Origin: Gammaproteobacteria bacterium
GTDB taxonomy: Bacteria; Pseudomonadota; Gammaproteobacteria; Poriferisulfidales; Poriferisulfidaceae
DNA length: 52,060 nt
Reading direction: 5' to 3'
Assembly: GCA_026713705.1 (NCBI GenBank)
Contig: JAPONY010000092.1
Location: 1-52,060, forward strand
The notes under the pieces were generated by a model. It saw only the letters and a list, made by a program, of their open reading frames with translations, did no database searches and was not told where the DNA came from. The translations under genes and the position numbers were made by a program. Below, piece after piece: positions 22,049-25,896 of this stretch. Numbering within the stretch: position 1 is the first letter of the stretch; each line of letters begins with the position of its first letter.

Positions 22049-23320
22049 CTATATGGAAAGAACTTCTTGTAAATATTTCTTCCAGCCCCTGATGGTCTGG
22101 ATTCTTCTGTAGAAGGTGCTGTTTTTCTTAAATCCATTCCGCTTTCTAATGTCTTCTCGAATGTCTGGATCATCAGATGAAATGAACTGATTGCAGAGAT
22201 CATTCGAAAAAATAATTTTGGCCATTTTCTGGAGAATCTCTCTTTCCGACTTTTGTGCAATACGTTTCCCTTCGGATGTCAGGCGACACAACCCCTTTCC
22301 TCTGCCCGCAATTTCTGCTAGCCCCATCCAGCGAAGTGTGTTCACGTAGTAGTCGTGCTGGCGCGGCACTATATTGTATGAAGAAAACAATCTTTCTTTC
22401 GTAATGGCGCCAACCTCGGACAGCTTCAAAAAGAGAGCTAATACCTTGTCGAACCTATCTGCTTGAGGAAACGGAGCCCCATACCCTGTTTTATCTATAT
22501 CCACTTCAACTGCATGCAGATCATCCCAAGAGAAATTAGAAGAAAAATCTACCTCAAGTGCACAGCGCCGGTAGTCAGAAAACCGAAGATGGCCATGCTC
22601 TGTATTGAATCTGTAAAAATGAAAATATCCTCTCCCTTGCTCATAAAACATCACGTATGTCTTCACATCTTTCTGCCCTTTAAACAGATCGCTGTAATGA
22701 AGTTGAGGATAGAGCAACTGCCTGAGGTTCATGTTGTCACTTAGTGCCAACTTAGCCTCAAACAGATGAAGCCCGGCCTGACCCTCATAACCACCATCTA
22801 CTTCCAACTGTACTTTTTCAATCGCATATTTCACAGGCCGATCACTCTCTCTATCTGGCAGCGAGAAGCCAATGCGCTTGCAATACTCACGCCCTCTCAA
22901 AACAGGAGACAATCTGTCTCCGACCACATCGTTGAGCATCCCGGAAACAAAAGCGGCATCCAATGCCTTAGATTCACTACTGATGTTCCTCGGCGTGAGC
23001 ACTTGTATGTGCTCTGGGATCGAGAAATGATCTGGGTGTCTGGTATCCCTACACTGTTTCTGATTAATGTTGATAAATGGATCAGTTCGGGCGAGCCTGT
23101 AACACCCATTCCTAATTGCCAAAACAGATAGTTTTTCTTTTTTTAGTGGGTCCGGGGTATTCTGTCGGTAATCAATTTTACAAGCCAAACGAGGCTCTCG
23201 ATATTTTTTAATTGTCTGACTTTCAATATCATAATGCCCCCTCCTATCGATCTCCGCCTCGACAGCGGTTATCTCCTCAAGTATCTTCTCCCAAGCGAGG
23301 TCATTCGCGCTTTTACTCAT
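22049..23320 (-). CDS. Putative type II restriction endonuclease
   Basis: A 423-residue protein paired with the Dam-type methylase. A probable PD-(D/E)XK core is in VQLEVDGGYEGQAGLHLFEA followed by KL (about residues 170-192), with Asp, Glu and the E-A-K triad. The last part (about 305-375) looks like a winged helix: ERLFSSYNIVPRQHDYYVN and LCRLTSEGKRIA. It resembles uncharacterised methylase-linked proteins annotated as restriction enzymes; the cleavage site is unknown. The start overlaps the methylase stop by 4 bp (ATGA), implying translational coupling. AT-rich codon use differs sharply from thrS. Confidence 0.75.
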   Translation of the reverse strand: MSKSANDLAWEKILEEITAVEAEIDRRGHYDIESQTIKKYREPRLACKIDYRQNTPDPLKKEKLSVLAIRNGCYRLARTDPFININQKQCRDTRHPDHFSIPEHIQVLTPRNISSESKALDAAFVSGMLNDVVGDRLSPVLRGREYCKRIGFSLPDRESDRPVKYAIEKVQLEVDGGYEGQAGLHLFEAKLALSDNMNLRQLLYPQLHYSDLFKGQKDVKTYVMFYEQGRGYFHFYRFNTEHGHLRFSDYRRCALEVDFSSNFSWDDLHAVEVDIDKTGYGAPFPQADRFDKVLALFLKLSEVGAITKERLFSSYNIVPRQHDYYVNTLRWMGLAEIAGRGKGLCRLTSEGKRIAQKSEREILQKMAKIIFSNDLCNQFISSDDPDIREDIRKRNGFKKNSTFYRRIQTIRGWKKYLQEVLSI

Positions 23321-24195
23321 CGGTAATTTCTCACGATGATCTCAGTTACCCCACCTCGACCCTCGGATTTGCAATTAACCGAGCGGCGCGCGCGTACCTT
23401 CTCGACGGCAAACTCCTTTTCTTTCCGGTAGAGATCCACCACCCATGGCGCAGAAGAATTTGACAGCATGAACAGGGCGCCTCGTTCGTGCAGACTCAAG
23501 CAGAAATCTTTCAAGCGGTTTTGTTCCGGTTTGCCAAAACCCTTGGAAGTGTAGGACGTGAAACTCGACGTGCGGGAAACCGGCGCATAAGGAGGATCCA
23601 TATACACAAAATCGAACGGCGACACTTGTTTCAAGGTCTGAGCAAAATCGGCTACAGAAATCCGGACATCCTTCAGAAAAGCGGAACAGGCCCGGAGATT
23701 TCCCGCATCAAGAATCTTTGGCTTGGGATACTTTCCATAGGGAACGTTGAATTTCCCTTCGGCATTAACACGATACAGCCCGTTGTAGGCTGTTTTGTTG
23801 AGGTAGATGAACCGGCTGGCCCGGTTCAAATTGGTTCGGCGCGAATAGCCTAAGGAACGATCCCAAGCTCTAATTTTGTAAAAGTAATCCTTATCAGTTT
23901 TGTGGCTGGACAAACTTTTGATAAGGTTCTCAACGTCATCTCTGATTACGCAATAAGCGTTGATCAGTTCTTCATTGCTGTCGCTGAAATGAAGTTTGCG
24001 ACATACTTCGTTTTTGTCTAGTGAAAAGAGTAATGCCCCCCCCCCCCCGAAAACTTCAAAGTAATTCATACACTTATACTTGCCTGACTTTGGCAGGCGT
24101 CGGGTCAATTCTTTCAGCAGCTGGCGCTTTCCACCTGCCCATTTCACGAATGGCCTTGGGTTGTCTCTGGAGACAACATCATTTCCAGCCTTCAT
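23317..24195 (-). CDS. Dam-family N6-adenine DNA methyltransferase with a homopolymeric tract
   Basis: A D12-class adenine methylase of 292 residues. Motif X is FVKWAGGKRQLLKEL; motif I is NYFEVFGGGGALLF; FSDSNEELINAY and FNVPYGKYPKP are Dam-like; the catalytic motif is FDFVYMDPPYAP. Many relatives methylate GATC, but specificity is uncertain. Motif I glycines are encoded by 13 consecutive G on the coding strand. Gain or loss of one base would stop translation within about 5-20 codons. The downstream endonuclease start overlaps this stop, so slippage could silence both. Full length as given. Confidence 0.9.
   Translation of the reverse strand: MKAGNDVVSRDNPRPFVKWAGGKRQLLKELTRRLPKSGKYKCMNYFEVFGGGGALLFSLDKNEVCRKLHFSDSNEELINAYCVIRDDVENLIKSLSSHKTDKDYFYKIRAWDRSLGYSRRTNLNRASRFIYLNKTAYNGLYRVNAEGKFNVPYGKYPKPKILDAGNLRACSAFLKDVRISVADFAQTLKQVSPFDFVYMDPPYAPVSRTSSFTSYTSKGFGKPEQNRLKDFCLSLHERGALFMLSNSSAPWVVDLYRKEKEFAVEKVRARRSVNCKSEGRGGVTEIIVRNYR
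24036..24048. repeat. 13-bp C/G homopolymer in the methylase motif I
   Basis: Thirteen C on the plus strand (G on the coding strand) within the Dam-type methylase. At 13 G the frame is open and codes four glycines plus the first base of Ala. With 12 G the reading meets TAG after CAT TAC TCT TTT CAC. With 14 G it meets TGA about 20 codons on. This is the classical layout of a slipped-strand phase-variable tract. A sequencing length error is also possible. Confidence 0.8.
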
Positions 24196-24368
24196 GAAAA
24201 CTTTTGTTGCCGGCAGCCATACTCGGCTTACCTTTTCACCTCAATCCTTCGGGATCAGCGATCATACCGATCTATACCGGAATGGCAAACCGCTAATAGA
24301 CACCCTTTCCAGGAATCATCGGCCCAGGAGATATTGAAAGGCTTTATGCCTACAGTCCTGACAAAAGA

Positions 24369-24611
24369 TCAGTAGCGATGCCCCTCATGGCGCGCCTGAA
24401 TTATCTCCTCGACCGACATCCCGACCGGCTCCAATTTTTTACGGCGGCGCCGAAAGCGGGCAACCGCCTGGCTGTAATCCTCGTGCACCGGAACCATACA
24501 CGCCACTGCCCGCCCATAGCGGGTAATCATCACGGTCTCCCCACGCTCAACCTTTCGAAGTAATGAGGCAAAACAGGCTTTTGCCTCGGTAATCGAATAG
24601 CGTACAGACAT
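24369..24611 (-). CDS. Phd/YefM-family antitoxin
   Basis: An 80-residue protein with the Phd/YefM start MSVRYSITEAKACFASLLRK followed by VERGETVMITRYGRAVACMV. These antitoxins bind DNA with the N-terminal half and a toxin with the C-terminal tail (here MSVEEIIQARHEGHRY). It begins one base after the fic stop and no classical RelE, Doc or YoeB toxin follows, so the Fic protein upstream may be its partner. The usual order places the antitoxin first, so the pairing is inferred from spacing. Confidence 0.8.
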   Translation of the reverse strand: MSVRYSITEAKACFASLLRKVERGETVMITRYGRAVACMVPVHEDYSQAVARFRRRRKKLEPVGMSVEEIIQARHEGHRY

Positions 24612-24612
24612 T

Positions 24613-25896
24613 TCAACCCCTCTTGATTCCGATAAGGTCCTCGGACCGCAACCGGTAGCGTATCACGTTGCCCTCATGCAACCCACGAAACTCATTGCCG
24701 ACATAATCAACGACCTGCTCGCGGTCGGCTTCGGGGATGCCAGCCTCATCCGCCATCACCCTGACACGGTCCGGATAGAAACCTTTCCATTCGAGCACGC
24801 AGCACCGGACGGCCTGGCGCACGAAATCGCGATAGGCAAGCGCCGCCTTGTCGAGTGATTCCAGCTCCGCGCGCAGTGTTCGGTAATTCTCGGCCGAGGT
24901 GATGTAAGCATCGACATATGCCTCGCGCAAGAGTGAGACATTGTTGAGTTCATAGACGCCAAGCAGGCCGTCGATATAGGCGGTGTCATCCATGGTCAGA
25001 AAGGACATGGGCGCCAGACCAGCCTTCAGGAGCGGGATATTGGAGGCAATGCGCGAGGTCCGCTTGTTGATGTCTTCAAAAGCCTGCAAGTAGGGAATGT
25101 GGACGAGGAGGAAGAAAGACTGCTCGAAGGGGTCGGCAATCGCTGCCGCCTTCTCGACGAGGACACCAAATTCTTCCTCGATGACGAAAGGATTATCCAG
25201 CGGCCGGTAGCTCGAACGGACGATGCCCACAGGCGTGCGCCGCAACCTCCCTGCCATCGCCGGATCACTCAGAAGGCCGCCGGCCAGCAGGGCGTGGATG
25301 TCAAACAGGTCCGGCCGACTGATCGTGACCTCGGGGAGGTGGTCGACGACATGCTGGATGGCCTCCTTGTGGTTGAGAATCATGACCGCCTCCTTGCGGT
25401 CTTTGCCGGAGACCTCCTCCCCGAAGCGGATCAACCTCTCGGTCTCCAGAAGACTGTAAGTGTTCCCCTCCATGCGCGAGGATGCCCAAGACAAGTCAAC
25501 GAGAAGCCGCTCCAGGATGCGCCGCGCATAGGTCCCGGCCGGCAGAGGCGACACCAGCCTCCCGGTCTCATGCAGGCGCTGCCGGTCGGCTTCGCCAAGA
25601 TAGAAATCCTTGTCCGGAACATAGCGGTCGACAAATTCCTTCTGATAGACAGCAAGCCTCCGCTGGTTGTACGGCGTCTTCAGGTGAGCATGCACTGCAA
25701 TCGCGCCCGCCAGGCTGTAACCTGTGGCCCGGGCTTTGCCCGAAACCTCAAGCCGACCCTCATCCACCAGTCGCTTCAGGGCACGCCAGACCGTCGTCGA
25801 ACCGGCTCCGGGTGCGACGTTGCGACGCACCTCCTCCCGCTTGGCTCCAGGATGGGCCGAGATGTAGTCCAGGATGACTTGGTCGGTGTTTTCCAT
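24613..25896 (-). CDS. Fic-domain protein with N-terminal winged helix and altered Fic motif
   Basis: A 427-residue protein. Residues 1-65 form a winged-helix DNA-binding domain (AGSTTVWRALKRLVDEGRLE). An inhibitory-helix motif S-x-x-x-E-G lies at 139-144 (SSRMEGN), as in self-inhibited class II Fic enzymes. The Fic core motif at 271-282 reads QAFEDINKRTSR instead of HPFx(D/E)GN(G/K)R: the catalytic His is Gln and the first Gly is Ile, while Phe, Asp, Asn, Lys and Arg remain. Canonical AMP transfer is therefore doubtful. It may be a regulator or use another chemistry. An AT-rich region with a palindrome lies upstream. Confidence 0.85.
   Translation of the reverse strand: MENTDQVILDYISAHPGAKREEVRRNVAPGAGSTTVWRALKRLVDEGRLEVSGKARATGYSLAGAIAVHAHLKTPYNQRRLAVYQKEFVDRYVPDKDFYLGEADRQRLHETGRLVSPLPAGTYARRILERLLVDLSWASSRMEGNTYSLLETERLIRFGEEVSGKDRKEAVMILNHKEAIQHVVDHLPEVTISRPDLFDIHALLAGGLLSDPAMAGRLRRTPVGIVRSSYRPLDNPFVIEEEFGVLVEKAAAIADPFEQSFFLLVHIPYLQAFEDINKRTSRIASNIPLLKAGLAPMSFLTMDDTAYIDGLLGVYELNNVSLLREAYVDAYITSAENYRTLRAELESLDKAALAYRDFVRQAVRCCVLEWKGFYPDRVRVMADEAGIPEADREQVVDYVGNEFRGLHEGNVIRYRLRSEDLIGIKRG

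Follow-up and report, generated by a model that had tools for sequence, protein, structure and literature searches.

How could a cell survive the random loss of a DNA methylase while the gene for its partner nuclease stays intact? Most known phase-variable methylases belong to Type I, III, and IIG systems of animal pathogens, and a two-gene Type II system faces this problem directly. A 2026 review describes ON/OFF representation as limited in Type II (PMC13076061). The locus described here makes the question testable. It lies in a gammaproteobacterial contig of 52,060 nt (the window; contig C92 of the genome designated G000), and we consider it likely that it is a two-gene Type II restriction-modification (R-M) operon whose methylase is phase variable through a poly-G tract, with feedback on the promoter and reduction of the restriction enzyme as parts of the proposal.

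The methylase and restriction genes

The methylase gene (M, 23317 to 24195, minus strand) encodes an N6-adenine DNA methyltransferase of the Dam/DpnII family with 292 amino acids. The product matched Pfam MethyltransfD12 (1.9e-57), TIGR00571 dam (2.9e-80; 269.8 bits versus a cut-off of 114.85), and the PADLOC models MTase_II and oMTase, and its nearest solved structure is M.DpnII (2dpm, 8.5e-64). Along with a score above the family cut-off, M has the SAM-binding motif I and the catalytic motif IV DPPY (residues 200 to 203; 23587 to 23598, minus strand), which is invariant in the homologue alignment. The residues through which E. coli Dam contacts GATC (K9, Y119, L122, R124, and P134; PMC10073500) are kept in the alignment as K18, Y137, L140, R142, and P152. 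These residues are conserved across the whole family and so are no proof of GATC specificity, and GATC is not avoided in the window (293 sites versus 292.4 expected). We infer that the recognition site of M is GATC, in part from promoter sites described below. M.DpnII and E. coli Dam share family, motifs, and GATC-contact residues with M; we know of no slippage tract in either of them, and by Pfam and PDB searches the restriction partner of M does not belong to the DpnII type.

The restriction gene (R, 22049 to 23320, minus strand) encodes a predicted Type II restriction endonuclease of 423 amino acids that matched the PADLOC model REase_II PDLC03513 (3.3e-44) and three Pfam DUFs in the order DUF6996-DUF6997-DUF7226. 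A PDB search returned no sequence match for R, and an AlphaFold model built from three sequences was poor (mean pLDDT of 46.6). A PD-(D/E)xK-like signature, E173-x-D175-GGYEG...E188-A-K190 (22751 to 22804, minus strand), is invariant in five R homologues and appears as expected for a PD-(D/E)xK nuclease. The earlier note on this DNA, made from the sequence alone, had R starting inside the M stop codon, and this is correct: the R ATG (23320 to 23318) overlaps the M TGA (23319 to 23317) in an ATGA (23317 to 23320, minus strand) that is also ATGA in the congener G001 and is GTGA in the congener G002.

Separate, adjacent M and R genes, the arrangement of a Type II R-M system, occur together in G000, G001, G002, the more distant G051, and a Syntrophomonadaceae MAG (L041). 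The genome of Candidatus Porisulfidus sp. TsSOB (G002; contig MRSX01000004.1) is, according to its title, a MAG derived from a sponge, and the genomes compared are MAG-type assemblies or drafts throughout. The pair is equally placed in G000 and G002, upstream of a threonyl-tRNA synthetase-like gene, and has different neighbors in G001.

A poly-G tract in methylase motif I

At 24036 to 24048 the plus strand carries 13 consecutive C, which read as 13 G on the coding strand and encode Gly50 to Gly53 (four GGG codons) and the first base of Ala54. The tract thus sits in the SAM-binding motif I (E47-V-F-G-G-G-G-A54; 24034 to 24057, minus strand; context YFEVFGGGGALLF), as the earlier note had it, and both its coordinates and codons 50 to 53 were confirmed. 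The same note held that slippage by one base in either direction would stop the protein early, and in silico frames bear this out. Tracts of 10, 13, or 16 G give a full-length methylase (291 to 293 amino acids), 12 G leads to a stop after 58 amino acids, and 14 G leads to a stop after 74 amino acids; the catalytic DPPY is missing from both stubs.

The window contains 223 G/C runs of 4 bases, 49 of 5, 12 of 6, one of 7, which is the second longest, and the one of 13. Under a first-order Markov model, the expected number of runs of at least 13 in the window is 0.004. Runs of 4 to 7 are rarer than the same model predicts, so the 13-base run stands apart. Pattern searches extended to the whole genome (1.94 Mb, 98 contigs) returned 19 G/C runs of at least 9 bases, 15 of which have at least 12 bases versus about 0.5 expected, and only 2 A/T runs of at least 9.

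A tract is found at matching codons in both congeners. G001 has 15 G, out of frame and followed by a TAA in the upstream frame, and G002 has 16 G, also out of frame; the R open reading frame is intact in both. Given its position at the same codons and its different apparent lengths in three species, the tract is very probably a switch that turns the methylase, and perhaps R with it, on and off at random. The locus combines a long repeat within an open reading frame, a frame change that abolishes the product, and a length that differs between related genomes, three of the features by which slipped-strand contingency loci are recognized.

The tract could have become hypermutable by accident, if a GGG-rich run over obligatory glycines had drifted longer and OFF alleles were slightly harmful or lethal errors. 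Motif I does require consecutive glycines, and GGG is common in these genes, at 25% of the Gly codons counted across eight genes of the window. However, the tract has added a glycine where relatives have another residue: nine relatives with 35 to 49% identity have P48 and V, L, or I at position 50 (EPF[VLI]GGGA, with GGAA in one), and glycine codons are mixed in those whose codons were inspected. As judged from this alignment, the tract is derived in this genus, a conserved hydrophobic residue having been overwritten by Gly and all codons being GGG. The tract also occupies the same codons in three species although synonymous sites elsewhere are close to saturation. Between these species, only 34 to 50% of the conserved four- or sixfold-degenerate residues beyond the tract have an identical codon, and GGG is shared by all three at 1 of 15 conserved Gly columns, which makes it unlikely that an unbroken G run was kept by neutral inheritance. 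Together with the many such tracts at phase-variation-type genes of the genus (see below), these observations make an accidental origin quite improbable.

A different objection is that the tract is stable in nature and differs in length only through assembly errors. Poly-G is error-prone, most other G000 tracts lie less than 300 nt from contig ends, and the sequence beside the tract is abnormal in both congeners. In G001, about 110 nt right after the tract (L122:3063-3170) diverge much more strongly than the remainder of M, which suggests poor sequence quality behind the homopolymer. In G002 (L139:4148-4163), 63 nt directly before the tract are absent relative to the window through a deletion or an assembly collapse, with R intact. 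Errors of sequencing or assembly at the poly-G could account for these anomalies, as could real lesions, and because of them the exact lengths of 15 and 16 G are unreliable; that all three assemblies have the tract is secure. Error leaves unexplained why each of three separate assemblies has at least 13 G at this position, and tracts of 9 to 13 G are also present in G004, a single-contig assembly, so that we regard a purely artefactual origin as very unlikely. The phase-variation tract proposed in the earlier note is thus well supported by the comparison of three species (13, 15, and 16 G, read as ON, OFF, and OFF), with the qualification that two of the lengths come from doubtful assemblies. 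From this pattern we infer slippage in living populations.

Promoter GATC sites and survival of OFF cells

A predicted sigma70 promoter of M (TTGCCA-16-TATGAT; 24261 to 24288, minus strand) lies approximately 65 to 93 nt upstream of the M start; it came from a consensus scan in which it was not significant alone, and it is conserved in the three species. Three GATC sites (24253, 24260, and 24269; together 24253 to 24272, minus strand) lie in and around its -10 box. Both congeners, G001 and G002, have kept these sites with almost no change in the surrounding sequence, while the G002 flanks diverge, and no such cluster was found upstream of the more distant homologues. It is the only cluster in the window with at least three GATC within 16 nt. 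Random spacing gives about one such cluster per window by our estimate, so clustering alone is weak evidence, and the weight of the cluster rests on its position and conservation. On these grounds, the conserved promoter sites suggest both GATC specificity of M and a methylation feedback on the operon. There is precedent for promoter-methylation control in CfrBI, where sites recognized by the methylase itself lie in the promoter region of M (reviewed in PMC12707154), as is predicted for M here. The CfrBI promoters are divergent and overlapping, whereas M and R are co-oriented and overlap in one operon, so the operon may at most work like CfrBI and does not belong with it.

In the mechanism that we propose, replication slippage would alter the tract one base at a time. 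Cells with 10, 13, or 16 G would make a working methylase, and other lengths would yield a stub of about 57 to 75 residues that lacks DPPY. Methylation of the GATC sites at the -10 box would damp the operon. In OFF cells, R would be reduced, most likely by transcriptional polarity over the 650 to 700 untranslated bases before R (700 nt from the early stop to the R start with 12 G, 654 nt with 14 G), and some translational coupling of R to M is possible besides polarity. Some cells of a population would then both restrict and methylate while others would do neither, which would vary their resistance to phages, their uptake of DNA, and possibly the expression of genes that depend on GATC.

The ATGA overlap and the lack of a clear second promoter make joint silencing of M and R plausible; a consensus scan returned no promoter-like site on the minus strand inside M. 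As to the route, polarity appears better supported than translational coupling. Direct tests on the overlapping C/R pair of PvuII, the only tested analogue that we found, showed that R is initiated independently of the gene before it, in which a frameshift nevertheless reduced R expression via transcriptional polarity (PMC2997769). RNA folding in three species gave no convincing occluding hairpin at the R start (z-scores of -1.3 to -1.6). GAGGAA precedes R in G001 and G002, with a weaker GAGAAA in the window, so that R may initiate independently. Silencing of R by polarity is our preferred, unproved answer. As a counterpoint, both assemblies with an out-of-frame M retain an intact R, and any expression of R in such cells would be dangerous.

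M could also be phase variable without silencing of R, if OFF cells were protected by another Dam-family methylase that shares the specificity of M; switching would then affect only the promoter feedback or the methylation level. G000 does have a Dam-family gene without a tract in contig C32 (L158:2829-3620; TIGR00571, 1.2e-67) in which the contact residues K, L, R, and P are kept, and its product is a possible backup for host protection if it also methylates GATC. However, these residues are kept family-wide and so do not prove GATC specificity, and G001 and G002 have no comparable copy, only weaker and more distant matches, yet they carry the tract. We consider switching of M without silencing of R, under such protection, unlikely.

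Known phase-variable systems and tracts across the genus

Phase variation has been described in Type I, III, and IIG systems, and methylases with poly-G tracts are likewise known. In Type III systems, R works only in complex with Mod. The M tract resembles those of Type III mod genes and their phasevarions in that poly-G lies in the methylase open reading frame and the frame sets methylation ON or OFF; unlike in Type III, R is here a separate Type II enzyme that is predicted to be able to cut unprotected host DNA. The phase-variable Type III mod M.Hpy99XXI, for example, has a tract of 10 to 12 G (PMC4490391). Homopolymer slippage in a Type II system is also shared with the Type IIG enzymes Cj0031 (PMC4889913) and JHP1272/HP1353 (PMC3936762), in which R and M are fused in one polypeptide and so are lost together, whereas M and R are two genes here. 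The CpG methylase of Mycoplasma agalactiae is a Type II-class methylase with a poly(G) tract of 6 to 11, the length variation of which has been measured in populations (PMC9465063). It is an m5C enzyme, listed as a pseudogene and without a restriction partner, and its tract directly precedes the conserved catalytic domain, whereas M is an m6A-family enzyme with R and its tract lies in motif I. New, as far as we searched, are the probable switching of a two-gene Type II pair within motif I, the promoter GATC sites, and the occurrence of both in a genus that includes a sponge symbiont.

G/C tracts of approximately 11 to 15 bases were also observed at L107, L123, L124, L125, L127, L128, L137, L140, L150, L151, and L155 in G000, G001, G002, and G004. 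The genes that have such a tract close to their start encode repeat-rich surface-type proteins (Calx-beta/LapA, fibronectin-III, and others), whose N termini look signal-like by eye, two N6_N4 methylases, one N6_Mtase, and one family-2 glycosyltransferase. G004 has three large genes with a common upstream sequence and tracts of 13, 12, and 11 G. In G000, the proximity of most other tracts to contig ends means that their genes are mostly cut off. Taken together, the genus tracts are a probable phasome that resembles those of Neisseria (PMC5953494) and Campylobacter (PMC6321876), and we found no report of a poly-G phasome in this genus in the open literature, most subscription journals being outside the search.

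We put forward more tentatively, as possible but somewhat short of probable, that a sponge-symbiont genus has a poly-G/C phasome of surface proteins, a glycosyltransferase, and DNA methylases that includes a two-gene Type II operon switched as a unit, and that this switching is survivable via promoter feedback and polarity on R. If true, the operon would show survivable ON/OFF switching of a kind usually confined to systems in which R depends on M for its action, as in Types I, III, and IIG.

Loss of mutS was considered as a cause of the tracts and was rejected, as mutS was found in all six genus genomes. Several G000 tracts abut a common motif, AAGTCAATGCCATTG, or its reverse complement (L107:4009-4021, L108:2984-2994, L110:3012-3023, L117:2977-2986, L119:16-28, and L120:2994-3006). 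The motif flanks the tract on both sides in L119 and L117, and these sites are mostly near contig ends. In the window itself, a Phd/YefM-type antitoxin gene (80 amino acids) adjoins a gene for a Fic-domain protein (427 amino acids) at 24369 to 25896, just upstream of the R-M operon and on the same strand.
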